Positions 27,132 to 42,217 of a stretch of DNA of 64,000 nucleotides are shown piece after piece. The DNA is from Halalkalibacter oceani. GTDB lineage: Bacteria; Bacillota; Bacilli; Bacillales; Bacillaceae_D. Location: NCBI RefSeq assembly GCF_023715605.1, contig NZ_JAMBOL010000002.1:372001-436000 (forward strand). The letters run 5' to 3'. Position numbers and translations under genes: made by a program. Within the stretch, counting starts at the first letter, position 1. Every line of letters starts with the position of its first letter. A model generated the notes under the pieces. It was not told the origin of the DNA, did no database searches, and saw nothing but the letters and a program-made list of their open reading frames with translations.

Positions 27132-27170
27132 AAAAAAACAGGCGGTTTTCCTCAGAACCGCGCCTGTTTC
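27132..27170 (-). terminator. Terminator of the BTAD regulator gene
   Basis: Minus strand AACAGGCGCGGTT / AACCGCCTGTT followed by TTTTT, overlapping the stop codon region. Confidence 0.9.
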
Positions 27171-30012
27171 ACATCGATTTTGAATAGTTGCTGAACATCG
27201 CTTCGATTTTTGCTACTACCGGGATTCCGAGCTCTTTTTCAATCATTTGCTGATAAAGCTTTGATACCCTGTTGGCGTGAAGAAGCATCTTCGCTGTCAG
27301 CAGCTTCTCGATATAATCGAGGTAAAGACTCTCTTGATAAGGTTCTTTGTTTAATAATTTGTCATAATAATGTTGTCCGGTTGAATAGTCCCCGGTATTC
27401 CAATAATATTCGGCCAGTTCCTGTAGGAGGTTGATATAAAGGACGCGATATCTTTCCCGATCAAGCTCTAAAAAGATATTGTAAGGATAGCCCTCGAAGT
27501 AGTCACCTTTGTATAAAGCTTCAGCCTGTTTCAAATCTTGAATTCTTTCTAACGGACTGAGGGAGTTTTTTTGTTCTGCTAATCGGGTGAATTCATTAAT
27601 GTCCAGGTGAATGTACTCTGTATCTAAATAATAATGTTCACCATCACGCTTAATGAAAGAGGATGAGGGGCCTTTTTTTAAATCGGGCTCCAACGATTTA
27701 CGCAAATTGGATAAGGCGACGTAGAACTGGTTGTTCGCCGATTCCATCAGCCCGCCAGGAAAAAGTTCGTCAAGGATGCTGTCTTTGTTTATTTTACTCC
27801 CTTGATGTGTAATCAAATATTGCAGCAAGTGCAAACTGGCCTTTCGTTTAATAGGAACGAGCTTATGATTGGCAAGGATTTCAAAGTTTCCCAACGTTGT
27901 GATGGAAAGAGCGCTGCGGTCAGCATGCCGCTTCTCCTTGATGAGAACCGGCCTCCGCTCCACTTCAACCGGAGCTGAGGAGAGTAACCAGTGATAGTTT
28001 TTGCCGGTGCAGATGTCCTGAAATTCTTTTAACGTATCGGCCGCGGCTTCATTTTTTCCCCGCTTTGTGTAAAGGCTGGTTTGTAACTGTAGAATGGTGC
28101 ATTTTAAATAGGCGGAGTCCGTGACATATGAGTACGCTTTAGATAAGTAAAGCTCTGCCAAATCCCAATTTTCGAGCTCCATGTAAGTCGTGGAAAGTTC
28201 TTTATACACCCAGGCCATCGCATATTCAATTTGAAACTCCTCAGCCGTAGCTTTCGCTTTATTAATCCATTCGAGCGCGTGGTGGTGATCGCCAATTAAG
28301 CGAAAGTATTTCCCCATTGAACAGTAAGGATAAACGATAGAAGCGTTATGGCGTTGCTTTGATATTTTCAATGTTTCTTCTAACAGAAGTTTCGCCTTAT
28401 CTAATTTCTTGTTCATGAGATGAACTTCCGCTAATATCCACGATGAAATATGAGTAGGGTGAAAAAAATTGTTCAGATTTGGGTATGACAACGATTTCTG
28501 AGCAGCTTCAAGCGCTTTATCAGCGCTGCCCTTATAGAAATAAATGACAGATTGGAGTGAAAGGTTAATCGCGATCATCTGATTATCTTTGTTTTGATGG
28601 GACTCCTGCAAGGATTCGGCGCAAAGCTGTTCAGCCTTACCGATTTCCCCGCTGTAAAAATAAGCGGCGGCGAGCTGATGCTTGTAATGCGAAACCGATA
28701 ATGGATTCAGGTGGCTACCATATTGTTTTAAATTGTTTTCCATCGCCGGTATCACTTTTTGCAAAGCGCTTAACGGCAGGCATTTTACAAGGAATAATCC
28801 AATACTGGCTGTATGTAACCGGGGAGAAACTTCCTGGAAAAACCAATCAACAAATTCGACAAACCTGGAGGGCGGATAAAATTCTTTCATCTTTGCCATG
28901 ATTTGCGTCGCTATAAAAAAATTGTTACTGGAGATAGCATGGGCAAATGCATGAAAGAAATCTTTCTTTTCTTCATAGATTGTCGAAAGTTGACTATGCA
29001 GCTTTTGAATCGTGTCGGTTTCGGATTGTGTTGTCAGTTGTTTCGTCAGAAAGGCTTGAAATAAAGGGTGGTAGCGCACTTCGCCATAATCATTTTGATA
29101 AATAAAGAGATGATTTGTCAGCAGGTGGTCAATAATTTGTTCTGAGTGATGAATGTTTAAATATTTGTCAATGACTTCCGGACTAAGCTCGTAAAGGATC
29201 GATGTCCGCCGAAGAAAATAGTTAATTTCATCACTTTGTTTGGCAAGAATTTCTTCACCTAAATAATTGTAAATATCTTCAGTTCCTTTGAAGTTTATCC
29301 AAAATGGCAACCGCTCCGTTACATTAATATCTTTGATCAAGTCCTGCAATAGTTGCAAGCAGGCAGCCCAGCCTTCTGTTTTTGAATAAATGAAATGAAC
29401 TTCCTGGTTCCGTAAGTCGATTTTGTGTAAATGGGAAAAATATTGCTTGATTTCATCTGGTGTAAATCTCAGCTCTTTTGTACTCAAGCGAGCCAGTTTA
29501 TTTTTCAACTTTAAATTTACGAGATTTAAATTAGGGCGTATGCGACTCGTAATGATAAAGGTAACGTGTGGGGAGACATGCGATAGAATATTGATCAACA
29601 TCCGTTCGATTTCCGGGCTTTGGTCAATCGTCTGATAATCATCCAAAACGATTATGAGCCGTTCCGGCCAGGTTGATAAAATGCTCATAATCTTATCCAG
29701 CTCACGGGAAAGGTCAGTGTCCGACACATCATAGATCACATTCTCGCCGGATATTTTTCTCATAATCGCGGTTTTTAAATAAGAGAGAAAAACAGCTGGA
29801 TTGCTGTCGATTTGTGATAGCTTATACCAGACTGTAGGTATATTCCTTTCCTTCGTAAAGCTCGAAACGAGCGTTGTTTTTCCGTAGCCGCCGTCACTTA
29901 TCAAACAGATGAGGGAACAGTCTAAATGTTTTTCCAGGTAAGTAAATAGACGCTTTCTAACTAAACAAGGAGTATAATGCGGCACACTTAACTTTGATTC
30001 AAAAAATAGCAT
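27169..30012 (-). CDS. NTPase-TPR-BTAD transcriptional activator (MalT-like head, SARP-like DNA-binding tail)
   Basis: 947 residues. The N-terminal STAND/MalT-like NTPase has Walker A SDGGYGKTTLV (~46-56) and Walker B LIIVLDDYQ (~118-126). A TPR-rich middle (~350-680) follows, then a winged helix (LGNFEILANHKLVPIKRKASLHLLQYL, ~705-790) and a BTAD all-helical domain to the end. Winged helix plus BTAD is the SARP module, here C-terminal instead of N-terminal. It stands opposite the catabolic cluster and three promoters there carry 11-bp-phased repeats. Inferred to be the inducer-dependent activator. A cre-like site lies in its leader. Confidence 0.88.
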   Translation of the reverse strand: MLFFESKLSVPHYTPCLVRKRLFTYLEKHLDCSLICLISDGGYGKTTLVSSFTKERNIPTVWYKLSQIDSNPAVFLSYLKTAIMRKISGENVIYDVSDTDLSRELDKIMSILSTWPERLIIVLDDYQTIDQSPEIERMLINILSHVSPHVTFIITSRIRPNLNLVNLKLKNKLARLSTKELRFTPDEIKQYFSHLHKIDLRNQEVHFIYSKTEGWAACLQLLQDLIKDINVTERLPFWINFKGTEDIYNYLGEEILAKQSDEINYFLRRTSILYELSPEVIDKYLNIHHSEQIIDHLLTNHLFIYQNDYGEVRYHPLFQAFLTKQLTTQSETDTIQKLHSQLSTIYEEKKDFFHAFAHAISSNNFFIATQIMAKMKEFYPPSRFVEFVDWFFQEVSPRLHTASIGLFLVKCLPLSALQKVIPAMENNLKQYGSHLNPLSVSHYKHQLAAAYFYSGEIGKAEQLCAESLQESHQNKDNQMIAINLSLQSVIYFYKGSADKALEAAQKSLSYPNLNNFFHPTHISSWILAEVHLMNKKLDKAKLLLEETLKISKQRHNASIVYPYCSMGKYFRLIGDHHHALEWINKAKATAEEFQIEYAMAWVYKELSTTYMELENWDLAELYLSKAYSYVTDSAYLKCTILQLQTSLYTKRGKNEAAADTLKEFQDICTGKNYHWLLSSAPVEVERRPVLIKEKRHADRSALSITTLGNFEILANHKLVPIKRKASLHLLQYLITHQGSKINKDSILDELFPGGLMESANNQFYVALSNLRKSLEPDLKKGPSSSFIKRDGEHYYLDTEYIHLDINEFTRLAEQKNSLSPLERIQDLKQAEALYKGDYFEGYPYNIFLELDRERYRVLYINLLQELAEYYWNTGDYSTGQHYYDKLLNKEPYQESLYLDYIEKLLTAKMLLHANRVSKLYQQMIEKELGIPVVAKIEAMFSNYSKSM

Positions 30013-30030: not shown

Positions 30031-30044
30031 TGTAAGCGCATTCA
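30031..30044 (-). promoter_or_regulatory. cre-like CcpA site in the leader of the BTAD regulator
   Basis: TGTAAGCGCATTCA matches the cre consensus TGWAANCGNTNWCA at all but one position. It lies 19 bases upstream of the start codon, in the transcribed leader, a position for roadblock repression by CcpA. Confidence 0.65.
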
Positions 30045-30099: not shown

Positions 30100-30128
30100 A
30101 TACTATTTATAAGTTACTTAATTGTCAA
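30100..30128 (-). promoter_or_regulatory. Promoter of the BTAD regulator gene
   Basis: Minus strand TTGACA (30128-30123), 17-base spacer, TAGTAT (30105-30100). The -35 overlaps the outermost repeat of the divergent array. The leader also contains AAGTTG (30047-30052) and CAACTT (30075-30080) as a spaced inverted repeat. Confidence 0.65.
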
Positions 30129-30298
30129 GGGTGTGTAAGTCAATCGTAAGAAAAATATTTATCACTTGTTAGTATTTATTTATCTTACAGTAAGAAGGGC
30201 TGTAGTGGTATACAGTTTTTTTCTATTTTGCTGGCATTAAAATTGTAAGAAAATTCAGAACTCCTTGTAAGGGTGTGGTTAGGTGGCTCCTTTATAGT
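30124..30298 (+). promoter_or_regulatory. 11-bp-phased direct-repeat array and promoter of the LLM operon
   Basis: GTAAG or GTTAG starts at 30135, 30146, 30168, 30190, 30245, 30267 and 30278; all intervals are multiples of 11. A weaker GTCAA is in phase at 30124. The last GTTAG is followed 15 bases later by the -10 TATAGT (30293-30298) with no good -35. This is the arrangement SARP activators use. Confidence 0.75.
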
Positions 30299-30399
30299 GC
30301 GATTAGATCGACTGGAACAGAAAGGAGGCAGCAAGGACGCGGCAAGTGTGGTGGACCGCACAAACAATTCAGATTAGAAGAGATAACGGAGGGGAAAGT

Positions 30400-31638
30400 A
30401 TGAAATTTGTATTCATGAACTTAATGTCGTATCGTGATTTACCGGAAGATTTCACGGAAACGTATAAAAGCGTCTATATTTCACTCCCGAACAAACTGTA
30501 TGATCCTGAAAAAGGGCATCAAATGTACAACGACTTTATCGATCAATACGAGCTGGCGATTGATTTAGGCTTTGATGGTGTAGGGGTAAACGAGCACCAT
30601 GCGAATGCGTACGGAATGATGCCTTCACCGAACTTGATCGCCGCCACACTGGCGCGAAAAGTGAAGGATTCGGAGCGAACGGTTCTGATCGTCTTGGGCA
30701 ACAGTCTGGCCCTTTATAATCCGCCGATTCGCGTCGCCGAGGAATTGGCGATGCTGGATAATATTTCAGGCGGGCGCCTGATTGCCGGTTTTCCGGTTGG
30801 TACCTCGATGGATACGAACTATGCGTATGGCATTAATCCGGCTGAGCTTAGGCCTCGTTATTATGAAGCCCATGATTTAATTATGAAGGCCTGGAAGGAA
30901 CGGGAAGTCTTCCATTTTAACGGGAAATTTAACCAATTAAGATATGTCAATGTCTGGACCCGGCCTTATCAGGAGCCTCATCCGCCCGTTTGGATTCCGG
31001 GCGGCGCAGCTAGCCAGGAGACGTTTGACTGGGTAGCAGAAAACGACTATCAATATAGCTATCTCAGCTTTTACGGGCATGAATTTGCGAAAGATAAGTT
31101 TGATAAGTTCTGGGAGCGCCGGAAGCAATTAGGCCTCGATATGAACCCGTATAAAGTCGGTTTTGTTCAAATGATCTGTATTTCAGAAACCGATGAAAAA
31201 GCGAAGGAAGAATATGAAGAGCATATTAACTATTTCTTTGAAAAAAGCTTTCATGTATCGCCGGAATTCCTCGAGGCTCCGGGCTACCGGACAGAAAAAA
31301 GTGTCAGGGCGGGGATGCAAAGCCAGTATGGAACCGAAAGCGCCGGGGCGAAGCTGAGAGCAGGCTTGAACTGGGAACAGATGGTGGAAGGAGGCTATAT
31401 TATTGCGGGCTCTCCTGAAAGCGTTATCAAGCAAATAAGAAAGGCGATTAAGAAGCTGCATGTCGGTCATTTTATCGCGCTCTTAAATCATGGATCGATG
31501 CCGCATGAGCTGGCATTGAAAAACATCCGCCTGATGGGAGAAGAAGTAATTCCGCATGTGCGCGACATTTGGGGCGATCAATATGAGGTGCAGAACTGGC
31601 CGGAAGTCACAGAAAAAGAAGCGGTAAAAAAAGGGTAG
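30400..31638 (+). CDS. LLM-class flavin-dependent monooxygenase
   Basis: 412 residues, luciferase-like (PF00296) barrel. Seen: DLGFDGVGVNEHHANAYGMMPSPN (the conserved EHH), ISGGRLIAGFPVG, RPRYYEAHDLIMKAW and PPVWIPGGAASQET. Uses reduced FMN from a separate reductase, and one is encoded at 35609. Possible reactions are aromatic hydroxylation or type II Baeyer-Villiger oxidation. First gene of the cluster; ATG with ACGGAGGGG upstream. The frame to 30346 lacks a ribosome site. Substrate unknown. Confidence 0.9.
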   Translation: MKFVFMNLMSYRDLPEDFTETYKSVYISLPNKLYDPEKGHQMYNDFIDQYELAIDLGFDGVGVNEHHANAYGMMPSPNLIAATLARKVKDSERTVLIVLGNSLALYNPPIRVAEELAMLDNISGGRLIAGFPVGTSMDTNYAYGINPAELRPRYYEAHDLIMKAWKEREVFHFNGKFNQLRYVNVWTRPYQEPHPPVWIPGGAASQETFDWVAENDYQYSYLSFYGHEFAKDKFDKFWERRKQLGLDMNPYKVGFVQMICISETDEKAKEEYEEHINYFFEKSFHVSPEFLEAPGYRTEKSVRAGMQSQYGTESAGAKLRAGLNWEQMVEGGYIIAGSPESVIKQIRKAIKKLHVGHFIALLNHGSMPHELALKNIRLMGEEVIPHVRDIWGDQYEVQNWPEVTEKEAVKKG

Positions 31639-31653
31639 AGGGAGGAATCAATC

Positions 31654-32466
31654 ATGGCTGTACCAGCAGTAGAAACGGTGAACGTAAGAGATAACATCAG
31701 CGCGAAGGTTTTAATTGCCGGCGAAGGGAAGCCTTTAGTTTATCTTCACGGCGCGGGCGGGCTGCAATGGGATGGTTATTTGGATAGGCTTGCCGAGCAT
31801 TACAAAGTGTACGCGCCTTACCATATTGGAACAGGCGGCTCGCTCGGCAAAGATGAAATACGCGACTGGTGGGATTTAGTTCTGTATTATTATGAATTGT
31901 TTGATGCGCTCGGATTGGAACAAGTTGATATTATCGGTCATTCGTTCGGGGGGATGGTTGCGGCAGAGCTGGCTTCGACCAATCCGGAGCGCGTGACGAA
32001 CCTTGTACTAGTGTGCGCGGCAGGATTATGGCTTGATGAAGCGCCGGTCAAGGATGTTTTTACGATGCTTAACACGCCGGATGTCTTGTTCCAGCATCTG
32101 TTTGCCAATCTCCATTCACCGGCAGCTCAGGCATTTGCCAATGCGGCGCCGGAGGATGAGCGAGAGCGGATTGACTTTATGGTCGCGCAAAATACAGCCG
32201 CCGCAGAAGCCGCAAAATTTATGTGGGGCATCCCGGACAAGGGGTTAAGCCGGCGGATTCACCGGGTGAAAGCGAACAGCTGCATCATTTGGGGCGCAAA
32301 GGATGCACTCGTCCCGGTTGATTATGCTTATGAATACCACAAAAAATTGCCGGGCTCACAAGTCGTGATTATGGAAAATTCCGGCCACTATCCTCAGGCT
32401 GAGGAGCTTGACGCAGTTGTCGACTCGACACTTCAATTTTTACAGGCGGCTCATGTGACAAAGTAG
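31654..32466 (+). CDS. Alpha/beta hydrolase
   Basis: 270 residues. The nucleophile elbow is GHSFGG (Ser97), the oxyanion strand LHGAGG, the acid near WGAKDALVP and the histidine in NSGHYPQ. The short cap with MWGIPDKGLSRR fits ester, lactone or C-C bond hydrolases of aromatic pathways. It starts 15 bases after the monooxygenase with GGGAGG. If the monooxygenase makes an ester, this enzyme would cleave it; if the ring is opened by meta cleavage it could act later. Undecided. Confidence 0.88.
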   Translation: MAVPAVETVNVRDNISAKVLIAGEGKPLVYLHGAGGLQWDGYLDRLAEHYKVYAPYHIGTGGSLGKDEIRDWWDLVLYYYELFDALGLEQVDIIGHSFGGMVAAELASTNPERVTNLVLVCAAGLWLDEAPVKDVFTMLNTPDVLFQHLFANLHSPAAQAFANAAPEDERERIDFMVAQNTAAAEAAKFMWGIPDKGLSRRIHRVKANSCIIWGAKDALVPVDYAYEYHKKLPGSQVVIMENSGHYPQAEELDAVVDSTLQFLQAAHVTK

Positions 32467-32495
32467 ACGGCTGACTTGAGACTGGGAAAGTAGAC

Positions 32496-32530
32496 AAAGT
32501 GAGCAGGAAACCTGTTTTCTGCTCACTTTT
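32496..32530 (+). terminator. Intra-operon hairpin before the TRAP genes
   Basis: AAGTGAGCAGG / CTGCTCACTT followed by TT; it may lower expression of downstream genes relative to the monooxygenase and hydrolase. The 190-base gap holds no gene. Confidence 0.65.
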
Positions 32531-32655
32531 ATCAGGACTGGCTGCTGCCTGCCAGTTCGATAAAACCGAAAACAGCAGGCCGTCTTTCCAGGCAGAGCAG
32601 AAGCGCGGAAACGCAATGACATATGTTCGTAATAATGAATGAAGGGAAGAGTGAA

Positions 32656-33753
32656 ATGAAAAAAATTGTAGCTGGCATGCTTTTATTGATGCTTTTCCTA
32701 CTGATGGCGTGCAGCGGCCAGTCTTCTGAATCGGTCTCAACGGAGGATAATGGGAATAGCCGTGCAAGCGATTCCTCCTCGCAGGAGGGGCAGCAGGCAG
32801 CGGAGGCAATCGAATTGACGATCGCCAGTGTTTGGCCGGGCCCGCACGGTCAGCATGTTCAGGTCGTTGAACCACTAATGGAGGAAATTGAAAAAGTGAC
32901 AGAAGGACGGATTACGGCAACGCTCTATCCGGCAGGGGGACTGGGTGCACCAAGTGAAACATATGACATGACCGTTACCGGGATTGCGGATATCGGTTAT
33001 GGACTGCACAATACGACGCCGGGGGTTTTTCACTTAGTCTCGGTTAACAGCCTTCCGTTCATTGGGGATAGCGCAATCAATGGAACCGAGATATCGAATG
33101 CCCTGCTGGAAACATTCTCAGAAGAATTTGAAGCAGAGCACGACGGAACGAAGATTGCTTATTTATGGATTGGCGATGGGGAGAACGTATTTACGGTTGA
33201 TAAACCGATTCATAAGCCGGAGGATTTGCAAGGGCTGCGAATCAGTTTAACACCATCGCCGACTGGAAATGCATTTTTGGAAGCATTCGGAGCGATTCCG
33301 GTCACGCTGCCGATGGGCGAGGTATATGAAGCCATGCAGCGCGGAATTGTCGACGGGGCGCTTGCCAATGGATCGACGATTCCAAATTTTCAATTGGGTG
33401 ACGTCGCCGGTCATATCACGAGGTTAAATCTCGTATTGCCGACATTCTTCTGCGTCATCAATGAAGATACGTGGAGTCAGATTTCCACGGACGATCAGGC
33501 GGCTCTTGAAGAATTATTTGCAGCATATGGCCTGAAGCATGCCGAAGCGTATGACTCGCTTGCTGAAGAAGGCTGGAGGATGGCAGAAGAAAAAGGCGTC
33601 GAAATTTTTGATATTCCAGAAGAAGAAAAGCATTTATGGGGAAATCCGCTTCAGCCTGTCGCAGATGAGTGGATTGAAAGCATTGAAGCAATGGGCCTGC
33701 CCGGGCGTGAGGTATATGAAGAAGTGCTCAGACTGAAGGAAACGCTTGATTAA
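32656..33753 (+). CDS. TRAP transporter solute-binding lipoprotein (DctP family)
   Basis: 365 residues, started at the ATG after GAAGGGAAGAG. The signal peptide ends in the lipobox LMAC (Cys ~19). The mature part has the DctP pattern: SVWPGPHGQHVQVVEPLMEEIEKVTEGRITATLYPAGGLGAPSETYDM and later VYEAMQRGIVDGALANGSTIPNF. In the segment that usually reads GLKIR, with the carboxylate-binding Arg, this protein has GLRISLTPS, so the usual Arg position is Ser. That hints at an unusual ligand, presumably the cluster's substrate. Confidence 0.9.
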   Translation: MKKIVAGMLLLMLFLLMACSGQSSESVSTEDNGNSRASDSSSQEGQQAAEAIELTIASVWPGPHGQHVQVVEPLMEEIEKVTEGRITATLYPAGGLGAPSETYDMTVTGIADIGYGLHNTTPGVFHLVSVNSLPFIGDSAINGTEISNALLETFSEEFEAEHDGTKIAYLWIGDGENVFTVDKPIHKPEDLQGLRISLTPSPTGNAFLEAFGAIPVTLPMGEVYEAMQRGIVDGALANGSTIPNFQLGDVAGHITRLNLVLPTFFCVINEDTWSQISTDDQAALEELFAAYGLKHAEAYDSLAEEGWRMAEEKGVEIFDIPEEEKHLWGNPLQPVADEWIESIEAMGLPGREVYEEVLRLKETLD

Positions 33754-33776
33754 TCTGGAAAGCCGGGGTGAACGGA

Positions 33777-34280
33777 ATGAGGAAATTTGTTACTTCCTTG
33801 GAAAAAGGAATGAGCAAAATCAATGAAATCGCCGGGTTCATAGCGGCAACTCTAATTGTTCTAATGATGATCCTGACATTCGCTAATGTCACAGGCCGGT
33901 ATTTTATCAGGCCGATCGTAGGAACACACGAGTTAACCTATTTGTCGCTGGCGCTAATCGTCTTTCTGAGCCTCGGCTACGTTCAAAGCAAGAAGGAGCA
34001 TATTGCGATTGGAATATTCGTTGATAAATGTTCGAAGCGGACTCAGGCGGTCCTCGATGCGATCAGCTATTTCGTCACCTTCTCATTGCTTTTTTTAATG
34101 GGCTGGCAAATGGTTGTCTTCGCCGGCCGGACGAGTACGACGTTAACGGGGGATTTGCATCTGCCGGTTTCCGCCTTCGTCTATCTTTGCGCGCTTGGTG
34201 CTTTCCTATATGCCATGACCGCCGTCGTTGATTTTTTGAAGTCATTGCTGAAGGTGGTGAATCCGGAACATGAGTCCTGA
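33777..34280 (+). CDS. TRAP transporter small permease (DctQ)
   Basis: 167 residues, four hydrophobic segments. Typical DctQ features: the first helix with VLMMILTFANVTGRYF, then GTHELTYLSLALIVFLSLGYVQSKKEHIAIGIFVD. ATG chosen at 33777 with CGGGGTGA upstream; a GTG at 33768 is possible. It couples the binding protein to the large permease. Its end overlaps the DctM start by 11 bases, so translation is coupled. Confidence 0.92.
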   Translation: MRKFVTSLEKGMSKINEIAGFIAATLIVLMMILTFANVTGRYFIRPIVGTHELTYLSLALIVFLSLGYVQSKKEHIAIGIFVDKCSKRTQAVLDAISYFVTFSLLFLMGWQMVVFAGRTSTTLTGDLHLPVSAFVYLCALGAFLYAMTAVVDFLKSLLKVVNPEHES

Positions 34281-35577
34281 AATGCTGGGCGGGTTGAGTA
34301 TCCTGTTGTTAATCACCCTAATTCTGCTTCGCGTTCAAGTCGCTGTAGCTTTACTATTAATCGGCTTTGTCGGCTACTCGTTACTCGTGAATGTCGACGC
34401 CGCTTTGGTTCAGCTTGGCAGTACCGCTTTTCAAACGGCGAGTAATTATAGTTTAAGTGTCATGCCTTTGTTTATTTTAATGGGGATGTTTTTATCCTAC
34501 AGTGGTTTAGCGCGAGATCTGTTCCATTCAGTCGACCGCTGGATCGGCCATCTTCGCGGAGGAATGGGGATGGCGACGATTGGTGCCTGTGCGCTTTTTT
34601 CTTCAATTTCGGGCTCTGTCTCGGCGACTACGGCAACCATTGGCAAAGTCGCCTTACCAGAGATGGAACGCTATCATTATGATCAAAAAGTATCGACGGC
34701 CTGTGTCGCCGCCGGTGGGACGTTGGGGATTCTCATTCCACCAAGTGTGACGCTAATTTTATACGGTGTTTTGACAATGGAGCCGATTGGGCAATTGCTG
34801 ATTGCCGGTATTGTCCCCGGCATTGCCATGGCGCTTTTATTTATGGTCACCGTCTATGTGCAGATTCGCAGAAATCCTGCCTTGGCTCCATTGAAAGCAG
34901 AGTCGACCCCTTTCCGTGAGAAAATTGGCTCTTTAAAAAAGGTCTGGCCGTTTTTACTCGTCTTTCTCGTCAGCATCGGTGGAATCTATTTTGGCTTTTT
35001 TACCCCTTCAGAGGCTGGTGGTGTCGGGGCAATTGGGGCGCTTCTGATCGCTCTTGCGACGAAAACGTTGAACTGGACGAATTTTTTACAGTCAATCATG
35101 GATACGGTGCGGATTACGGGGATGCTGTTTATGATTTTAATTGGCGCGGGTATGTTCGGGAAATTTTTGGCGATTTCAAAGCTGCCGATGCAATTATCAG
35201 CGTCAGTTGCCAATACTACCATTTCACCTTATTTAATTTTACTAATCATTTTGCTCGTTTATCTCATTCTTGGACTGTTTATGGAAGGCTTCGCGATCCT
35301 CGTCCTGACATTGCCAATTGTCTATCCGCTGATCATTGATTTAGGGTTTAATGGCGTCTGGTTTGGGATCATTATGATTTTGGTGCTGAATATGGGTCTT
35401 TTGACACCTCCTTTAGGGCTAAGTGTGTATGTCATCAGCGGAGTGGCGAAAAATATCCCGATTCAAACGATCTTTCGCGGCGTCGTTCCTATGCTTGTCA
35501 CGATCATTATTTTCACGGCGATTTTGGTTGTTTTCCCGAGTATCGTTACATTTCTTCCCGACATGATGTACGAGTAA
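34270..35577 (+). CDS. TRAP transporter large permease (DctM)
   Basis: 435 residues, about eleven hydrophobic helices plus hairpins. DctM signatures: VMPLFILMGMFLSYSGLARDLF, GACALFSSISGSVSATTATIGKVALPEM, TLGILIPPSVTLILYGVL and LGLFMEGFAILVLTLPIVYPL. It uses the sodium gradient to move the ligand from DctP, consistent with a sodium-based alkaliphile. Middle of the TRAP triplet. Substrate is inferred to be the aromatic growth substrate. Confidence 0.95.
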   Translation: MSPEMLGGLSILLLITLILLRVQVAVALLLIGFVGYSLLVNVDAALVQLGSTAFQTASNYSLSVMPLFILMGMFLSYSGLARDLFHSVDRWIGHLRGGMGMATIGACALFSSISGSVSATTATIGKVALPEMERYHYDQKVSTACVAAGGTLGILIPPSVTLILYGVLTMEPIGQLLIAGIVPGIAMALLFMVTVYVQIRRNPALAPLKAESTPFREKIGSLKKVWPFLLVFLVSIGGIYFGFFTPSEAGGVGAIGALLIALATKTLNWTNFLQSIMDTVRITGMLFMILIGAGMFGKFLAISKLPMQLSASVANTTISPYLILLIILLVYLILGLFMEGFAILVLTLPIVYPLIIDLGFNGVWFGIIMILVLNMGLLTPPLGLSVYVISGVAKNIPIQTIFRGVVPMLVTIIIFTAILVVFPSIVTFLPDMMYE

Positions 35578-35608
35578 CAAGCCTGAAAAGGGCGAAAGGA
35601 GGACTTAC

Positions 35609-36145
35609 ATGAAAGTCGTTGGCATCTCCGGCACGATCATTGGAACGAAAACGAGTGCCGTCGTCAGTCTCATCTTGGACGAAATCAAAAAAGTCGACTC
35701 CACTGTCGAGACAGAGCTGCTTGATTTGAAAAACTATCAGCTCCAATTTTGTGATGGGCGGGATCCGGCTGCCTATGAGGGGGATACGAAAAAAGTAATC
35801 GATATTATGAATGCTGCTGATGTCTTTTTATTCGGCACGCCGATTTTTAACGGATCCTTGTCCGGTCCGTTAAAAAATCTAATTGATGTAACGCCGGTAG
35901 CCGCGTTAAGGAACAAAGTGATCGGATTTATCGCAACAGGAGCAATTCCCCAGCATTATCTCGTTATCGAAAATCAACTGAAACCGATAGCCGGCTATTT
36001 TCGCGCCTTTGTAGCGCCAAGCTCTGTCTATGTGACACGCGACCATTTCAATGAACGGCAAGAACTGATCGATGAGGAAGTCCTCAGGCGAATGGAGCAT
36101 TTGGCAAAAGAGCTGGTTCATATGGGCAAGGCGTTGAAGTTTTAA
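35609..36145 (+). CDS. NAD(P)H-dependent FMN reductase
   Basis: 178 residues, flavodoxin-like. The N-terminal VVGISGTIIGTKTSAVVSLIL replaces the usual GSxRxxS phosphate loop of these reductases, and LFGTPIFNGSLSGPLKNLID is the FMN-contact motif. Similar enzymes (SsuE, MsuE) feed reduced FMN to LLM monooxygenases, so it probably serves the monooxygenase that starts the cluster. AAAGGAGG precedes the ATG. A terminator follows. Confidence 0.9.
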   Translation: MKVVGISGTIIGTKTSAVVSLILDEIKKVDSTVETELLDLKNYQLQFCDGRDPAAYEGDTKKVIDIMNAADVFLFGTPIFNGSLSGPLKNLIDVTPVAALRNKVIGFIATGAIPQHYLVIENQLKPIAGYFRAFVAPSSVYVTRDHFNERQELIDEEVLRRMEHLAKELVHMGKALKF

Positions 36146-36152
36146 AGAAAGA

Positions 36153-36179
36153 GAGGCTGCAAGATAAAGCCTCTTTTTT
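36153..36179 (+). terminator. Terminator after the FMN reductase
   Basis: GAGGCT / AGCCTC with TTTTTT; marks the end of the first catabolic transcript. Confidence 0.85.
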
Positions 36180-36248
36180 AATGATATCTCTAAGCTGTTC
36201 AGCAAAACATTATGATAAACTGGCTATAGAGCTGGGAGGTAGAAACGG

Positions 36249-36443
36249 GTGAAATTGAACAGAAAAATAGGGATGGCGCTATGTGCGCTGGTTTTGCTTG
36301 CAGCCGTGTTTTTAGTCGGCACTCAATCCTATTTCAACAATAAGGAAATCAGTTTGGCAAGTGACCGCTGCTCTGAATTAGGCGGAGCTCCGAAGGTAGA
36401 AAGAAATCTTCTCTCCTTAAGCTATACTTTTTCGTGCGAGTAA
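36249..36443 (+). CDS. Small exported or membrane protein
   Basis: 64 residues, GTG start with GGGAGGT upstream. One N-terminal hydrophobic segment (residues 9-26, MALCALVLLAAVFLVG) and an outside tail of ~40 residues with two cysteines (RCSELGG and TFSCE) that could form a disulfide. No family recognised. It sits between two catabolic transcription units but shows no link to catabolism. Confidence 0.55.
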   Translation: MKLNRKIGMALCALVLLAAVFLVGTQSYFNNKEISLASDRCSELGGAPKVERNLLSLSYTFSCE

Positions 36444-36460
36444 ACGAAAGGATGGCTTCT

Positions 36461-36620
36461 GAGGCTGGGACAAAAGGTTGTTTTTTTACCTTTTGCCCAG
36501 TCTCTAAGCAATGAGCGGAACCGACACGATCTTTTAAAGCCCGTTGTGAGTGGGTTTCTCACAACGGGCTTGTGGCGTGTGAAGCCATTGCCAGTAGGCC
36601 TAAAGATAGTTTTGTCTCAA
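36461..36620 (+). repeat. Structured repeat element, subfamily 2, copy D
   Basis: GAGGCTGGGACAAAAGG head hairpin, GCAATG, CGACAC (one base off the stem), GCCCGTTGTGAG / CTCACAACGGGC around TGGGTTT, GTGGCG, CATTGC, and TTTTGTCTCAAGC at the end, which mirrors the head (GGCTGGGACAAAA). Lies between the small ORF and the citryl-CoA-lyase-like gene. Confidence 0.88.
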
Positions 36621-36780
36621 GCTCAAATCGAGGGCTGGGCTAAAAGAAAAAACGTTTGGCCCAGCCCTTTTCTGCATTCTGCAAAAGTGGTCCCGTTCCA
36701 TGCAGGTCTGGGAAAAGGGGAAAGACGTCCTTTTTTCCAGGCTCTTTTTTTATGCTTGGCGGTTCTTTCTCCGTCCGTTT

Positions 36781-36833
36781 GTAAGATTAAAGCGCTTTCC
36801 AGTAAGAAGTCAGTTAGAAATATATTTTATAGT
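36781..36833 (+). promoter_or_regulatory. BTAD-type promoter of the lyase/CoA-transferase operon, with cre-like site
   Basis: GTAAG at 36781, GTAAG at 36802 (21 bases on, one short of two turns) and GTTAG at 36813, then -10 TATAGT at 36828-36833, 15 bases after the last repeat start. Between the first two repeats lies TTAAAGCGCTTTCC (36787-36800), a cre-like palindrome. Confidence 0.7.
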
Positions 36834-36872
36834 TTTTCTATTCTACATGAATTGAATGGGGAGGCTGTCGCG

Positions 36873-37643
36873 ATGGAATTTGAAACAAGAATTGGCAAGT
36901 CAACGAAAGAATCGATCGAAGTACATGGTTACGACCTGGCCGAGCAGTTAATCGGAAACATTACCCTTGCTGATATGGCGTTTTTAGGGGCGAAGCATCG
37001 AAAGCCGTCGGAGGAGGAATCACAAATGCTCAACGCATTGTTGATCGCGATTTGTGAGCACGGCTTTACCCCGAGTTCCATTTCGGCCCGACTTACGTAT
37101 CTCGGCGCGCCCGAGGCTGTTCAGGCTGCCGTGGCGGCCGGCTTGCTTGGGGCCGGCACTGTTTATTTCGGGGCGATGGAATATGTCTCTGAAATGCTGC
37201 AAAACGCTTTCCGGCAGCATGGAGAGGAGAAGAGCATTGAAGAGCTTGCGGCGACGGTCATTAAGGAACGGAAGGAGCAGGGTTTGCAGCTGCCGGGGTT
37301 TGGTCACCACATCCATAAACCGGTCGATCCGCGTACACCGAAGCTGTTTGCGTTAGCGGAAGAGCTCGGCTTCCTCCGTAAGCATTCAAAGCTTTTGCTG
37401 GAGATGCACAAGCAGTTTTGTGAGGAGAAAGGGAAGCAAATTACGTTAAATGTCACCGGAGCGATCGGGGCGATCATGTCGGATATGGAGATTGATTACA
37501 GACTTGTGAAGTCATTTGCTGTCGCGGCGAGGGCTGTCGGGCTCGTCGGTCATATTGCCGAGGAGATTGAAAAAGGAAGGCAGGAATCCGTCGCTCAGCA
37601 GCTGTTTGAATATGTGGAGAACCATACCGATTACAGAAGTTGA
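36873..37643 (+). CDS. Citryl-CoA-lyase-like protein of the citrate synthase family
   Basis: 256 residues, about two thirds of a citrate synthase. It keeps GFGHHIHKPVDPRTPKLFALAEE, the form of the second catalytic histidine region found in citryl-CoA lyases, and the C-terminal AAARAVGLVGHIAEEIEKGR. Such short enzymes split or join an acyl-CoA by retro-aldol chemistry. What it does in this cluster is not clear, since the 3-oxoadipate route needs no such step. ATG chosen at 36873 with GGGGAGG upstream; the longer frame starts inside the repeat. Confidence 0.8.
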   Translation: MEFETRIGKSTKESIEVHGYDLAEQLIGNITLADMAFLGAKHRKPSEEESQMLNALLIAICEHGFTPSSISARLTYLGAPEAVQAAVAAGLLGAGTVYFGAMEYVSEMLQNAFRQHGEEKSIEELAATVIKERKEQGLQLPGFGHHIHKPVDPRTPKLFALAEELGFLRKHSKLLLEMHKQFCEEKGKQITLNVTGAIGAIMSDMEIDYRLVKSFAVAARAVGLVGHIAEEIEKGRQESVAQQLFEYVENHTDYRS

Positions 37644-37680
37644 TAAGCAGGTTATTTTTGATGAACGGAGGGTGTGACAG

Positions 37681-38343
37681 ATGATTAACAAAGTAATCGC
37701 TTCTGCTTCTGAGGCAGTTGCTGACGTAGATAACGCGAGCACGGTCTTGTTCGGCGGCTTCGGCGGCGCGGGGGTGCCGTATGAATTAATTTATGCGTTA
37801 TACGACCAGGAGGCGAAAGACCTGACAGCCGTCAGCAACAATCCAGGCTATCACGAGGAAGGAATTGCGAAATTAATCGCTCATGACCGGATTGCGAAAT
37901 TGCTCTGCTCTTTTCCGGTGCAAAAAGACAGCTATGTGTTTAAGGAAAAATATAAACAGGGAAAAATTGATTTGGAGCTGATTCCCCAAGGGACGATGGC
38001 CGAACGGATCCGGGCCGGGGGAGCGGGCATTGAAGCATTTTATACGCCCACAGGTGTCGGGACGGAAGTGGCAAAAGGCAAGGACAAAAAGGAATTCAAC
38101 GGGATCACTTGTATTCTAGAAAAAGCAATCAAAGGGGATTTTGCTTTTATTCGCGCGAAAAAGGCGGATCGCTGGGGCAATCTCGTTTACAACAAATCAG
38201 GGCGTAACTTTAATCCGGTGATGGCGATGGCTGCCAAGGTCACGATTGCTGAAGTTGATGAAATAGTCGAAGTCGGTGAATTGGACCCGGAGGCAATCGT
38301 CACACCGGGGATTTTCGTCCAACGTGTCGTAAAAAGGAGCTGA
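37681..38343 (+). CDS. 3-oxoacid CoA-transferase subunit A
   Basis: 220 residues, class I CoA-transferase alpha chain: FGGFGGAGVPYELIYALYD, IPQGTMAERIRAGGAGIEAFYTPTGVGTEVAKGK and ADRWGNLVYNKSGRNFNPVMA. With subunit B it moves CoA from succinyl-CoA to a 3-oxo acid. Given the maleylacetate reductase and thiolase in the cluster, 3-oxoadipate is the likely acceptor (PcaI role), though acetoacetate cannot be excluded from sequence. ATG with CGGAGGGTG ahead. Confidence 0.9.
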   Translation: MINKVIASASEAVADVDNASTVLFGGFGGAGVPYELIYALYDQEAKDLTAVSNNPGYHEEGIAKLIAHDRIAKLLCSFPVQKDSYVFKEKYKQGKIDLELIPQGTMAERIRAGGAGIEAFYTPTGVGTEVAKGKDKKEFNGITCILEKAIKGDFAFIRAKKADRWGNLVYNKSGRNFNPVMAMAAKVTIAEVDEIVEVGELDPEAIVTPGIFVQRVVKRS

Positions 38344-38349
38344 GAAAAA

Positions 38350-39015
38350 ATGGATCAACGACTGCTATCGAGAGAGCAAATTGCCAAACGGATCGCCCAG
38401 GAGCTGCGTAATGGCGATGTGATTAATTTAGGAATCGGCATTCCTGTCCTGGTCAGCAATTTCGTTTCCCCGGAAGCGGAATTTATCTATCACAGCGAAC
38501 AAGGTGTACTGGGGATGGGATCGCTTGCTGACCCGGATGAAGCTGATCCCGATCTCGTCAATGCCGCAAAGGAGCCTGTCACACTTGTTCCGGGAGGGAG
38601 CTTCTCTCATTCGGCCGACTCTTTTGCGATGGTCAGAGGTCAGCACATTGATGTGGCGGTGCTCGGCGCGATGCAAGTGTCAGAACGAGGCGACCTTGCC
38701 AATTGGAAAGTAAAAGGCGTGCAATTAGGCGGGATAGGCGGAGCCATGGATATTGCGATCGGAGCGAAGGCACTTTATATCGCGATGACGCATACGAGCA
38801 AGGATGGTCAGGCGAAAATCGTCAAGGAACTTGATTATCCGGTGACCGCTTTACAATGTGTAAGCTGTATTTTTACAGATATGGCTGTGATTGAAGTGAC
38901 GAAGGAAGGGCTGCTTTTAAAAGAAATCGCCCCGGGACTGACGGTCGAGGAAGTCCAGCAGGCCACCGGGCCGGCATTAATTGTCCCGAATGATATAAAG
39001 GAGATTCACGTGTGA
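38350..39015 (+). CDS. 3-oxoacid CoA-transferase subunit B
   Basis: 221 residues. The catalytic glutamate lies in YHSEQGVLGMG, matching the SENG motif of PcaJ/ScoB-type beta chains (Gln for Asn), and NLGIGIPVLVSNFV is the N-terminal glycine motif. PGGSFSHSADSFAMVRGQHIDVAVLGAMQVSERGDLANW is the conserved core. Starts six bases after subunit A. Predicted to form 3-oxoadipyl-CoA for the thiolase at 40986. Confidence 0.92.
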   Translation: MDQRLLSREQIAKRIAQELRNGDVINLGIGIPVLVSNFVSPEAEFIYHSEQGVLGMGSLADPDEADPDLVNAAKEPVTLVPGGSFSHSADSFAMVRGQHIDVAVLGAMQVSERGDLANWKVKGVQLGGIGGAMDIAIGAKALYIAMTHTSKDGQAKIVKELDYPVTALQCVSCIFTDMAVIEVTKEGLLLKEIAPGLTVEEVQQATGPALIVPNDIKEIHV

Positions 39016-39019
39016 GGCA

Positions 39020-39060
39020 GGCCGGGTTAAAGGGTTTTTTACCTTTTTCCCGGCCTTTTT
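39020..39060 (+). terminator. Terminator after the CoA-transferase genes
   Basis: GGCCGGGTTAAAGGG paired with CCTTTTTCCCGGCC, then TTTTT. Confidence 0.9.
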
Positions 39061-39107
39061 GCTAATTTTTCTCCGTTCCTCTTTTTGTCAGAAAAAAAAC
39101 GCTGTGA

Positions 39108-39161
39108 GTAAGAAAAAGAGCCTGCCTGTGTAAGTAACTGGTTAGAGCAGCGTTTTAAAGT
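39108..39161 (+). promoter_or_regulatory. BTAD-type promoter of the ring-cleavage operon
   Basis: GTAAG at 39108, GTAAG at 39130 (22 bases) and GTTAG at 39141 (11 bases), then -10 TAAAGT at 39156-39161, 15 bases after the last repeat start. Same layout as the last three repeats before the LLM operon (30245, 30267, 30278, -10 at 30293). Confidence 0.78.
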
Positions 39162-39213: not shown

Positions 39214-40188
39214 ATGCTGCAAAATCTTATTAACGGGATTCACCATGTAACGGCCGGGGTGGCAGGCGCCCAGGAAGATGTCGACTTCTTTACGACGATT
39301 GTCGGGCAACGTTTGGCTAAGCAGACGGTCTTAATGGACGGTCCATTGCCTATTTATCATCTTTATTATACAAATGCTGATGCTGATATCGGCTCGGCGA
39401 TGACGACTTTTCCGTATGGAAAGGCTGGAATTAAAGCAAGAAGAGGCTCAGGGCAGGTTAAGATCACATCGTATACCGTGCCTTCCAATTCACTCGAATT
39501 TTGGGTGGAGCATTTTCAAAAGCATCATGTCCGGCACGGTACCATTGAAGAACGCTTTGGCCAAAGACGCCTAACTTTTATGCATCCATGCGGGCTTGAG
39601 TTTGAATTTGTCGAGGATGATACGGATACAAGGAGAGGATATGTCACCGATGACGTATCGATTAACGAAGCGGTCAAAGGATTCCATAGTGTGACGATGT
39701 CGGTGCGGGAAGTAGAAGAACAGAACCGTTTTATTACTGAAGTGCTCGGCTTTCAATTTATCGGCCAGGAAAGGAATTATTATCAGTATGAATTAAAGGA
39801 GGGGGGAGCGAATAAAACGATTTATGTTGTGCACGAGCCGGATCTTCCTCAAGGAAGCTGGGGTCTCGGTGCCGGTACGATTCATCATGTTGCCTTTGCC
39901 GTTGATACGGACGATGAGCTAAATCAGGTGCGGGAAATTGTGACGGGCTTGGGCTTTACCGACATGTCCGAAATTAAAGACCGTTATTACTTCCATTCCG
40001 CATACGTCAGATCGCCTGGTGGCATTCTTTGTGAGTTCACGACAAGTGATATCGGCTTTACGATCGATGAACCGTTTGAAGAGCTTGGACAAAAGCTTCA
40101 TCTTCCGCCGTGGAAGCTTAAGGATAGTGAAGAAATTATGAGCCAGCTTGAACCGATCACCAATCCGCAAAAGCCACTGGTGAAATAA
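39214..40188 (+). CDS. VOC-family ring-cleaving dioxygenase (hydroquinone/MhqO type)
   Basis: 324 residues made of two vicinal-oxygen-chelate modules. Metal ligands are suggested by GIHHVTAGV (~residue 10), the second-module FHSVTMSV, TIHHVAFAV and the glutamate in GGILCEFTT. Closest pattern is the MhqO/MhqA and LinE group that opens hydroquinones rather than catechols. The ATG at 39214 has AAGGAGGAG upstream. In this cluster it should deliver maleylacetate or its semialdehyde precursor; no aldehyde dehydrogenase gene is seen. Confidence 0.88.
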   Translation: MLQNLINGIHHVTAGVAGAQEDVDFFTTIVGQRLAKQTVLMDGPLPIYHLYYTNADADIGSAMTTFPYGKAGIKARRGSGQVKITSYTVPSNSLEFWVEHFQKHHVRHGTIEERFGQRRLTFMHPCGLEFEFVEDDTDTRRGYVTDDVSINEAVKGFHSVTMSVREVEEQNRFITEVLGFQFIGQERNYYQYELKEGGANKTIYVVHEPDLPQGSWGLGAGTIHHVAFAVDTDDELNQVREIVTGLGFTDMSEIKDRYYFHSAYVRSPGGILCEFTTSDIGFTIDEPFEELGQKLHLPPWKLKDSEEIMSQLEPITNPQKPLVK

Positions 40189-40197
40189 GGCGCGTTA

Positions 40198-40833
40198 ATG
40201 AATATTCATTTACAGCAGCCGGTCGTCAGGCGGGGGCCGGCGGTTTCTGAAGCACAAGCCGTTGTCTTCATGGTGCACGGGCGTGACCAAACGACTGAGT
40301 ACGTCTTGAATCTAGTGGATCGCATCCAGCTTCCTGATGTTCATTATGTCGCCCCGCAAGCGGCTCAGAACAGCTGGTACCCGGTCGGCTTCATGAAAGA
40401 GATCGCTGAAAATGAGCCTTATTTAAGCTATGCTCTCGATTGCTATGAGCAGCGGATTTCAGAGCTGGTCGCCGAGGGCATACCGAAATCGAAGATCGTC
40501 CTGCTCGGGTTTTCGCAGGGAGCTTGTTTAACAGCTGAATTTGCGGTACGCCGTCCTGAACGGTATGGCGGGATTATCGTCTATACGGGTGGGGTGATCG
40601 GGCCTGATGGCACGAAATGGAATAGCCAAGGCTCCTTTCAGAATACTCCGGTTTTTCTGGGGTCAAGCGATGTCGATGAATGGGTACCGGAACAACGAAT
40701 TCATGATACCGCGGCGATTTTTAACAAGCTCGGCGCTCAAACGAAAACGGTTATATATAAAGGGATGGGGCATGAGATCAATGACGACGAAATCGATTTT
40801 GCAAGAGAGCTGATTCGTAATGTGAAAGGATGA
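40198..40833 (+). CDS. Carboxylesterase/phospholipase-type hydrolase (MhqD-like)
   Basis: 211 residues, alpha/beta hydrolase of the YodD/MhqD group. Nucleophile in LLGFSQGACLTAEF, catalytic Asp near GSSDVDEWVP and His in GMGHEINDDE. Adjacent mhqO-mhqD homologues form a unit in B. subtilis for quinone detoxification; the same pair here is separated by nine bases. It might hydrolyse an aryl ester upstream of ring cleavage or protect against quinones. Confidence 0.9.
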   Translation: MNIHLQQPVVRRGPAVSEAQAVVFMVHGRDQTTEYVLNLVDRIQLPDVHYVAPQAAQNSWYPVGFMKEIAENEPYLSYALDCYEQRISELVAEGIPKSKIVLLGFSQGACLTAEFAVRRPERYGGIIVYTGGVIGPDGTKWNSQGSFQNTPVFLGSSDVDEWVPEQRIHDTAAIFNKLGAQTKTVIYKGMGHEINDDEIDFARELIRNVKG

Positions 40834-40871
40834 AGTGCGGGAGGTTCTGCCGAAAATCGTAATCAAAAAAT

Positions 40872-40885
40872 AGAAAGCGCTTTCG
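40872..40885 (+). promoter_or_regulatory. cre-like CcpA site before the thiolase gene
   Basis: AGAAAGCGCTTTCG, containing the perfect 12-base palindrome GAAAGCGCTTTC of the cre core. It lies about 100 bases before the thiolase start. Confidence 0.65.
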
Positions 40886-40908
40886 GTTTTGCCGGAACTT
40901 CTCATTGC

Positions 40909-40960
40909 CCTTCCAGAAGAAACGCACATTGTGCCCATGCTTATTTTGGAAGGGTCTTTT
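40909..40960 (+). promoter_or_regulatory. Hairpin in the thiolase leader
   Basis: CCCTTCCA and TGGAAGGG arms with a long loop, followed by TCTTTTG. Could be a weak terminator or a regulatory leader structure. Confidence 0.4.
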
Positions 40961-40985
40961 GCATTCAATAGAAGGGGGGAGTCGG

Positions 40986-42185
40986 ATGGCAGCTCGTGCG
41001 TATATTGTACGTGCACAGCGCACTGCGGTCGGCAAGCTAGGGGGTACCCTGAAAAGGATCGAACCCGATGACTTGCTTTTGCCTTTGCTTCAGGATATCA
41101 AAAAGCAGAAATCGCTACCCGAGAGCCTGATCGATGAGGTCATTGTCGGTCAGGCCAAACAAAGTCAGGATCAGGCAAACATAGCGAGAAAAGCGCTGTT
41201 AAAAGCTGATTTTCCAGAGTCGCTGCCGGGCTATACGGTTCATCGCCAATGTGGAAGCGGGATGCAGGCGATTCATAACGCCTTTTTTCAAATGAAAGCC
41301 GGCCTGGGGGAAGCCTTTATTGTAGCAGGGGTCGAAAGCATGAGTACAGCGCCTTATTATTTGCGCAATGCCCGGTTCGGGTTTTTCTCCGGAAATGCCG
41401 AGATTCTCGATCCGAATAAAGAGAGTCAGCCGGGGTCACAGCCGGAAGAAACCTATGGACGATTGACGATGGGGATAACCGCTGAGAATCTCGCGGAAGA
41501 ATACTCGATCTCGAGAGCAGAGCAGGATGCCTTTGCCCATGCCAGTCAAACGAAAGCAAATGCGGCAATCATAAGCGGAAGGTTCAAAGACGAAATCGTC
41601 CCGATTTCGGTCCCGCAACGAAAAGGGGAGCCGCTGCTTTTCACCACGGATGAGCATCCTAGAAAAACCACGCTTGAAAAACTGGCTGCTCTGAAACCGG
41701 TGTTTAAACAAAATGGAACGGTGACAGCTGGAAATTCGTCAGGATTAAACGACGGTGCCTCGCTGCTGCTCGTCGTCTCTGAAAACATCATCAAGCACTA
41801 TCAACTGAAGCCGCTCGTTGAGATCGTCGGTGTCGGGGTAGCGGGAGTGCAGCCTGAGCGGATGGGAATCGGTCCGGTACAGGCAACGGAAAAAGCATTA
41901 CAAATGGCGAAGCTGAGACGTGAGGATCTTGGTTTAGTAGAGGTGAATGAAGCCTTTGCTGCACAAGCGCTTGCCGTCATGAAAGAACTTGATCTTCCTG
42001 AGGAAATTGTCAATGTCAATGGCGGGGCAATCGCGCTCGGACATCCGATTGGGAACAGCGGGGCGAGAATTTGTGTGACGCTGATTCATGAAATGATGAG
42101 GCGGGGAGTTGAATGGGGGCTAGCGACTTTATGTATTGCCGGTGGTCAGGGAATTGCCACGATTTTCAGACATGCCGCTCGATGA
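40986..42185 (+). CDS. Acetyl-CoA acyltransferase (thiolase), predicted 3-oxoadipyl-CoA thiolase
   Basis: 399 residues. Catalytic Cys89 in VHRQCGSGMQA, His in GGAIALGHPIGNSGA (~353) and the second Cys in CIAGGQG (~383). It should split 3-oxoadipyl-CoA into acetyl-CoA and succinyl-CoA, the last step of the route. Started at 40986 with AGGGGGGAG upstream; the frame back to 40905 has no ribosome site. The gene just downstream makes 3-oxoadipate, which supports the assignment. Confidence 0.93.
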   Translation: MAARAYIVRAQRTAVGKLGGTLKRIEPDDLLLPLLQDIKKQKSLPESLIDEVIVGQAKQSQDQANIARKALLKADFPESLPGYTVHRQCGSGMQAIHNAFFQMKAGLGEAFIVAGVESMSTAPYYLRNARFGFFSGNAEILDPNKESQPGSQPEETYGRLTMGITAENLAEEYSISRAEQDAFAHASQTKANAAIISGRFKDEIVPISVPQRKGEPLLFTTDEHPRKTTLEKLAALKPVFKQNGTVTAGNSSGLNDGASLLLVVSENIIKHYQLKPLVEIVGVGVAGVQPERMGIGPVQATEKALQMAKLRREDLGLVEVNEAFAAQALAVMKELDLPEEIVNVNGGAIALGHPIGNSGARICVTLIHEMMRRGVEWGLATLCIAGGQGIATIFRHAAR

Positions 42186-42217
42186 GCTCGCGTTGACCTT
42201 GATAAAGGAGAATCGGA

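Follow-up and report, generated by a model that had tools for sequence, protein, structure and literature searches.

Three phased promoters beside a MalT-like regulator gene

The window studied here, that is, the whole stretch of 64,000 nucleotides from Halalkalibacter oceani, contains the gene of a 947-amino-acid regulator (27169–30012, minus strand) and, on the plus strand, three operons, each preceded by a promoter with phased GTAAG or GTTAG repeats. Operon 1 (30400–36145) encodes an LLM flavin monooxygenase, an alpha/beta hydrolase, a three-gene TRAP transporter, whose two membrane genes were named from their translations only, and a flavin mononucleotide (FMN) reductase. Operon 2 (36873–39015) encodes a citryl-coenzyme A (CoA)-lyase-like protein and CoA-transferase subunits, the second of which (38350–39015) was likewise named from its translation. 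Operon 3 (39214–44642) encodes a hydroquinone-type 1,2-dioxygenase, an esterase, a thiolase, a maleylacetate reductase, a RibB-like protein and a 103-amino-acid open reading frame with no match in NCBIfam. A common transcript is assumed for operon 1 and for operon 3.

The three promoters, all on the plus strand, are built alike. Promoter 1 (30245–30298) has repeats starting at 30245, 30267 and 30278 and the −10 hexamer TATAGT at 30293–30298; promoter 2 (36781–36833) has repeats at 36781, 36802 and 36813 and TATAGT at 36828–36833; and promoter 3 (39108–39161) has repeats at 39108, 39130 and 39141 and TAAAGT at 39156–39161. Further upstream of promoter 1, also on the plus strand, stands an array (30135–30194) with GTAAG, GTAAG, GTTAG and GTAAG at −143, −132, −110 and −88 from the last repeat. 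A preliminary description of this DNA had placed GTWAG repeats (W, A or T) at 30135, 30146, 30168 and 30190 and at the nine promoter positions, had set each −10 (at 30293, 36828 and 39156) 15 bases past the G of the last repeat, and had seen no good −35. All 13 repeat starts and the three −10 placements were confirmed, and the hexamers 17 base pairs (bp) upstream of the −10 read AGGGTG, AGAAGT and AGTAAC. The regular phasing needs one qualification, as the step from 36781 to 36802 in promoter 2 is 21 bp and not 22. The repeats stand one or two helix turns apart, and the last ends 10 bases before the −10.

When the whole genome (4,474,054 bases in 124 contigs) was searched with the strict pattern GTWAG-N6-GTWAG-N10-TAWAGT (N, any base), only three matches were obtained, which are promoters 1–3 and fall within 9 kilobases (kb); the reversed control gave none.

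Conservation in two relatives

A comparison with relatives had been proposed as a check on the repeats, and the same arrangement is kept in two of them: Halalkalibacter oceani P106 (locus L004), with a regulator copy that is 96% identical, and Mesobacillus maritimus PL-B2 (L005), whose regulator is 70–71% identical to the window protein. Both retain the regulator and all three phased promoters at the same spacing, including the 21-bp step. Between the window and Mesobacillus the repeats and −10 hexamers are identical at 62 of 63 positions, as against 92 of 180 for the other positions from −45 to +35 (Fisher p 5.6e-14), and a search of the whole Mesobacillus genome gave three strict matches, each of them at one of these operons, and none for the reversed control. 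The far-upstream copies at 30135–30190 fared differently: their positions are correct, yet we rejected the array as a conserved part of promoter 1, because the far-upstream repeats of Mesobacillus consist only of a pair at −119/−108. A possible extra promoter 5′ of the Mesobacillus thiolase gene (a GTAAG pair, L005 1889) did not come up in the site scan and is left out of the counts.

The same putative operator design at distant regulator loci

As the preliminary description had suggested, the motif search was extended to relatives that carry the regulator, and sites were found also at the loci of distant homologues. In total, 21 loci from 17 genomes, each with a regulator of the MalT-type nucleoside triphosphatase (NTPase), TPR and C-terminal BTAD type, were examined together with their flanks. 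All loci beyond the window were found through the protein, by searches of Bacilli genomes, in which homologues occur in at least 3 of 397, 2 of 24, at least 6 of 398, at least 2 of 398, 1 of 4, at least 4 of 245 and 5 of 39 genomes; in the surveys that give lower bounds (397, 398, 398 and 245 genomes) scoring was limited to two or three preliminary candidates in each genome. The ten distant homologues that were measured are 29–41% identical to the window protein.

A site of the promoter geometry was present at 21 of the 21 loci, exact at 16 and with one mismatch at five. First, among the initial 13 loci there were 11 exact sites, with one mismatch in L017 and L031. Second, the other eight loci were chosen by protein profile alone, and the scan rule was fixed before their DNA had been inspected; five of them have exact sites (L050, L051, L054, L055 and L056) and three have a one-mismatch site plus an upstream third copy (L049, L052 and L053). 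The genes involved vary by locus, and include those for hydroquinone catabolism, a class-III aminotransferase, a cupin, a short-chain dehydrogenase, DUF2306 and S8 peptidase proteins, and others. This comparison of genomes shows that related regulators, with other pathways under their control, share the predicted operator design across the Bacilli genomes examined.

The geometry is specific. The near-duplicate loci L004 and L035 were excluded from the spacing scan, the site anatomy and the Markov counts. In first-order Markov resamples of the 19 non-redundant loci no exact site arose, either in 20 rounds over 11 loci or in 60 rounds over the eight loci, where 16 and 7 were observed; a loose match was found on average in 0.05 of 11 loci and in none of eight. 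Across 140 combinations of repeat distance (6–19) and spacer (6–15) in the 11 loci, matches occurred only at (11,10), with 16, and at (11,12), with three. When pentamers doubled 11 bp apart 5′ of N10-TANNNT were ranked in these loci, GTAAG came first with 10, and the runner-up had two.

Taking the G of the last repeat as position 0, the 28 sites have GTAAG at −11, GTWAG at 0, TANNNT at +15 and a third copy at −32 or −33. The elements at −11, 0 and +15 were selected for, the 11-bp last step and the N10 spacer holding by construction of the scan. Allowing one mismatch, 18 of the 28 sites have the third copy, 21 or 22 bp upstream, and five of these 18 (L017, L031, L049, L052 and L053) were accepted partly because of it. 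Over the 28 sites the −35 position has the consensus AGAATC, with no −35-like hexamer. By a mechanical rule, an open frame with a ribosome-site-like motif begins within 450 bases 3′ of 28 of 29 sites (all but L017), and the first such start lies 40–65 bases after the −10 in 21 of the 29. For promoter 1 this rule picks a GTG, the ATG at 30400 being likelier.

Some further observations concern these loci. A small cupin protein adjoins the regulator and carries sites at nine of them (L016, L030, L031, L032, L033, L049, L050, L051 and L054), often with a short-chain dehydrogenase; the protein is ChrR-cupin-like in the two that were scanned, the others being judged from their translations. The cupin/short-chain dehydrogenase loci are thus a recurring pathway. 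Paralogous regulators sharing the GTAAG-type operator occur in three genomes, two each in G362 and G425 and three in G1361. Sites resembling the catabolite-responsive element (cre), with up to one mismatch to the CcpA consensus, lie within 150 bp of 12 of the 28 promoters, as compared with 0.045 expected per 300 bp; six of the 12 are at +20/+21 (examples are L030 1081 and 4006, L051 8452, L054 5760 and L016 9928). Many of these regulons are likely to be under carbon catabolite repression. No cre-like site was found within 150 bp of window promoters 1–3, and the regulator leader has one at 30031–30044 (no strand assigned), with one mismatch, a similar stretch occurring at the aligned place in Mesobacillus. 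A GTAAG at 30032 (−246 of promoter 1) belongs to this site and was rejected as a member of the repeat array.

Pattern counts in whole genomes

With the first repeat fixed as GTAAG, the strict pattern has eight matches in 397 genomes of the order, namely, promoters 1–3 and one match in each of five other genomes (L057–L061); no genome but that of the window holds more than one. Two of the five single matches (L058 and L061) fall inside long same-strand open frames, L057 is just behind a 111-amino-acid frame, L060 overlaps only a 104-amino-acid frame of the opposite strand, and L059 stands 5′ of a gene start. A third repeat within one mismatch accompanies L060 only, at one of the two positions.

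The whole-genome count covered 12 of the 17 regulator-bearing genomes, about 64.6 megabases (G038, G570, G1149, G1292 and the genome of L004 were left out). The shorter pattern GTWAG-N6-GTWAG-N10-TA has 27 matches in them, 21 of which are at a regulator or its regulon. All 21 start with GTAAG, and five of the other six start with GTTAG.

Domain architecture of the regulator

The regulator has a MalT-type STAND NTPase region (residues about 5–375), TPRs (about 445–696), an OmpR-like winged helix (about 700–800) and a BTAD domain (803–938). Winged helix and BTAD make up a C-terminal SARP-type domain (27199–27915, minus strand), the presumed DNA-binding and RNA-polymerase-contacting part, whose recognition helix, about residues 758–773, is encoded at 27694–27741 (minus strand). 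The winged helix had been described earlier as C-terminal, behind an NTPase-TPR part, and Pfam and profile matches bear this out. First, BTAD was matched by PF03704 with 34.5 bits (cut-off, 22.1) in the window protein, and at E≤0.001 in 11 of 11 homologues scanned; Trans_reg_C scored 19.9 bits in the window protein, under its cut-off of 26.2, and reached E≤0.001 in six of 11. Second, residues 5–361 matched the NTPase region of MalT (8bob) with E 5e-28 as a single sequence, and the N-terminal part did so with 5e-57 by profile. The NCBIfam MalT model gave the window protein 213, against a cut-off of 537, and there was no LuxR helix-turn-helix among its Pfam matches at E≤0.001, with BTAD present instead. 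Third, a C-terminal profile of 19 homologues matched AfsR (8hvr) over positions 4–239 of 245 (E 6e-4) and EmbR (2fez) over positions 2–232 (E 2e-3), and so takes in both winged helix and BTAD of each. The whole-protein profile matched AfsR (8k60) with E 2e-7 without any single stretch passing alone, and the SARP likeness was therefore rested on the C-terminal profile.

The recognition helix follows N-[QRKH]-[FL]-x-V-x-[LIV]-[SA]-x-L-R in 19 of 19 homologues, with N761, V765, L770 and R771 invariant in the alignment; the regulator of L052 has A for the usual S. Aligned by eye, S-x-L-R-K can be superposed on S91-R92-L93-R94-K95 of AfsR (numbering from PMC10936776).

Downstream of the regulator gene, a 115-amino-acid open reading frame (26664–27011) has a translation like that of the first part of an ATP-binding ATPase and is perhaps truncated; in L004 a frame of 251 amino acids lies at about this place.

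A predicted hydroquinone-type pathway

The three operons read as a route for hydroquinone-type ring degradation via maleylacetate and 3-oxoadipate, a prediction from homology that draws on the ring-cleavage enzyme and the maleylacetate reductase together with the CoA transferase, thiolase, LLM monooxygenase, FMN reductase, TRAP transporter and RibB-like protein. Among solved structures, the ring-cleavage enzyme is nearest to 2,6-dichlorohydroquinone 1,2-dioxygenase (4huz, E 3e-79) and MhqO (3oaj, E 7e-49). For the iron-containing dehydrogenase the top match is 3jzd, an unassigned iron-containing alcohol dehydrogenase, and maleylacetate reductases are matched as well (3w5s, E 7e-94; 3hl0, E 3e-92). 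The citryl-CoA-lyase-like protein matches 6hxp (E 8e-39) and was assigned no place in the predicted pathway. The RibB-like protein (43325–44296) belongs to the 3,4-dihydroxy-2-butanone 4-phosphate synthase family, with scores below curated cut-offs, and perhaps supplies flavin for the LLM monooxygenase. For the TRAP genes of operon 1 (32623–35577), the open reading frame list of Mesobacillus contains no same-sized counterpart in L005 6843–9647.

Discussion

We propose, with a probability of about 0.85, that the regulator is an activator of the STAND type, which uses its C-terminal SARP domain to bind the phased GTAAG repeats and to recruit RNA polymerase for the three catabolic operons. As far as sequence can tell, this supports the earlier reading, in which the BTAD protein encoded next door coordinates the three operons through these repeats. 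Several results weigh against our proposal. On the side of the operator, five of the 21 loci have a one-mismatch site only, and at the weakest loci the site lies far from the regulator (4.4 kb in L052 and 3.7 kb in L056). Genome G1360 has no exact GTWAG-N6-GTWAG-N10-TA match in its whole sequence, and the regulator-bearing G362 and G038 yield no match when the −10 is required to be TAWAGT, since their own −10s have other sequences. The five genomes with single strict matches (L057–L061) gave no regulator at E≤1e-60, six of the 27 matches in the 12 whole genomes lie elsewhere, and the far-upstream array of promoter 1 has no counterpart at the same positions in Mesobacillus. Moreover, the reversed control gave 11 matches in the 397 genomes (counted from the listing), at most one per genome, and the reversed pattern has 50 matches in the 12 genomes as compared with 27 forward. 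The letters of the reversed pattern are commoner in general, so that our case rests on the location of the forward matches and not on their number.

On the side of the protein, many TPR proteins that match only the TPR-like part of BTAD outrank AfsR and EmbR in the profile search of the PDB. A profile of the winged helix alone places OmpR-type domains first, with EmbR at E 0.13 and AfsR absent from the best 60 of 70 matches. The AlphaFold model, computed from the window, L004 and L005 sequences, was poor (predicted local distance difference test, 51; predicted template modelling score, 0.41), and for this reason its fold match, with AfsR or EmbR as the six best Foldseek results (template modelling score 0.41–0.45, root-mean-square deviation above 9), counts for little. 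Finally, R92 of AfsR contacts a base (PMC10936776), and the position aligned with it varies among the homologues, with V in the place of AfsR T88; the base contacts must therefore differ from those of AfsR.

Three other explanations of the repeats were considered. The one that survives best, and that we still judge improbable, is that some other protein, such as a response regulator of the OmpR or LytTR type, occupies the repeats and that the MalT-BTAD gene is merely a frequent neighbour. Direct repeats are bound by domains of both these types as well, and binding by the MalT-BTAD protein is a prediction. However, all loci beyond the window were found through the MalT-BTAD protein, and the site was there at 21 of 21, with target genes that differ from locus to locus, from ring catabolism, aminotransferase and cupin to short-chain dehydrogenase, DUF2306 and S8 peptidase; and none of five short loci of the own genome around other BTAD and MalT-like proteins carries it. 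Slightly less probable again is a regulator that, once bound to the repeats, represses or acts as an antiactivator. The sites do overlap the −35 position, where repressors also sit, but there is no −35-like hexamer in the AGAATC consensus of the 28 sites, and the geometry is that of SARP activators as presented in PMC10936776. Chance or base composition, for which the shortness of the units and the equal or greater frequency of the reversed pattern in whole genomes might speak, can practically be dismissed given the absence of exact sites from the Markov resamples, the 21 of 27 matches at a regulator or regulon, and three strict matches within 9 kb in a genome of an order where no other of the 397 has more than one.

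The proposed activator can be compared with several known systems. MalT (8bob) is alike in its N-terminal NTPase region and TPR region; it acts on direct-repeat arrays and its C-terminal end is a LuxR helix-turn-helix, whereas a SARP domain takes that place here. AfsR (8hvr, 8jke and 8k60) is alike in its winged helix and BTAD, which match near end to end, and in its STAND NTPase and TPR sensor. In AfsR, unlike here, the SARP domain is N-terminal and not C-terminal (about 700–938 of 947), and the present protein further differs in its MalT-type NTPase, its GTAAG core and the lack of conservation at the R92 position. According to passages in PMC10936776, SARP promoters, including those of AfsR-type large SARPs, have direct repeats 11 or 22 bp apart, a last heptamer 8 bp from the −10 and a poor −35, and neighbouring SARP domains of AfsR sit next to each other and take over from the −35 as the support for sigma region 4. 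A GTWAGNN heptamer followed by 8 bases reproduces this geometry, and the claimed kinship with SARP operators thus holds for the 11/22-bp repeats, the 8-bp distance and the missing −35. For PimR, a SARP-LAL regulator, PMC5930380 describes three repeats with 4-bp spacers, of which at least two heptamers are needed for binding, and the PimR heptamer CGGCAAG shares AAG with GTAAG; PimR differs in its N-terminal SARP domain, its antibiotic cluster target and a main operator that does not overlap the −35. EmbR (2fez) shares winged helix and BTAD, and differs in a C-terminal FHA domain, as characterized in PMC10936776, and in having no NTPase. The description of large SARPs in PMC10972967 has the SARP domain at the N-terminus; with its C-terminal SARP domain, our regulator is by strict definition not a classical large SARP, and it also differs from the Streptomyces large SARPs in its catabolic pathway and Bacilli host. 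Overall, the system appears to work like a SARP system.

These comparisons suggest a mechanism in which a SARP domain, OmpR-like winged helix plus BTAD, replaces the LuxR helix-turn-helix of MalT within a STAND activator. By analogy with MalT, the N-terminal NTPase and TPRs would sense an inducer and, with ATP, oligomerise, and the oligomers would set two or three winged helices next to one another along GTAAG-N16/17-GTAAG-N6-GTWAG. Since the repeats lie where a −35 would be, sigma region 4 may find an alternative dock on the SARP domains, as in AfsR, and the sigma-A polymerase would so be recruited. The outcome would be joint activation of the three operons, whose products, judging by homology, would provide aromatic uptake and oxygenation, hydroquinone ring cleavage, maleylacetate reduction and thiolysis.

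It is tempting to go further, and we lean, with somewhat more confidence than doubt, towards the idea that all MalT-NTPase/TPR/C-terminal-SARP activators of Bacilli read one operator, GTAAG-N16/17-GTAAG-N6-GTWAG-N10-TANNNT, whatever the pathway. If so, a single pattern search would predict regulons in any genome, and genomes with two or three paralogues (G362, G425 and G1361) would pose a question of insulation or cross-talk. Among the matches listed in a search of the open-access literature (titles and abstract starts), none dealt with a MalT-BTAD regulator from Bacilli or with a GTAAG operator. Regulators known only by their BTAD domain gain a predicted binding site, activation mechanism and set of target genes. 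The promoter logic of SARPs, known from antibiotic clusters of Streptomyces, would also apply to catabolic operons in Bacilli, where the regulator has its domains in the opposite order, and the question of how STAND oligomers match direct-repeat arrays is opened to testing in easy laboratory hosts.

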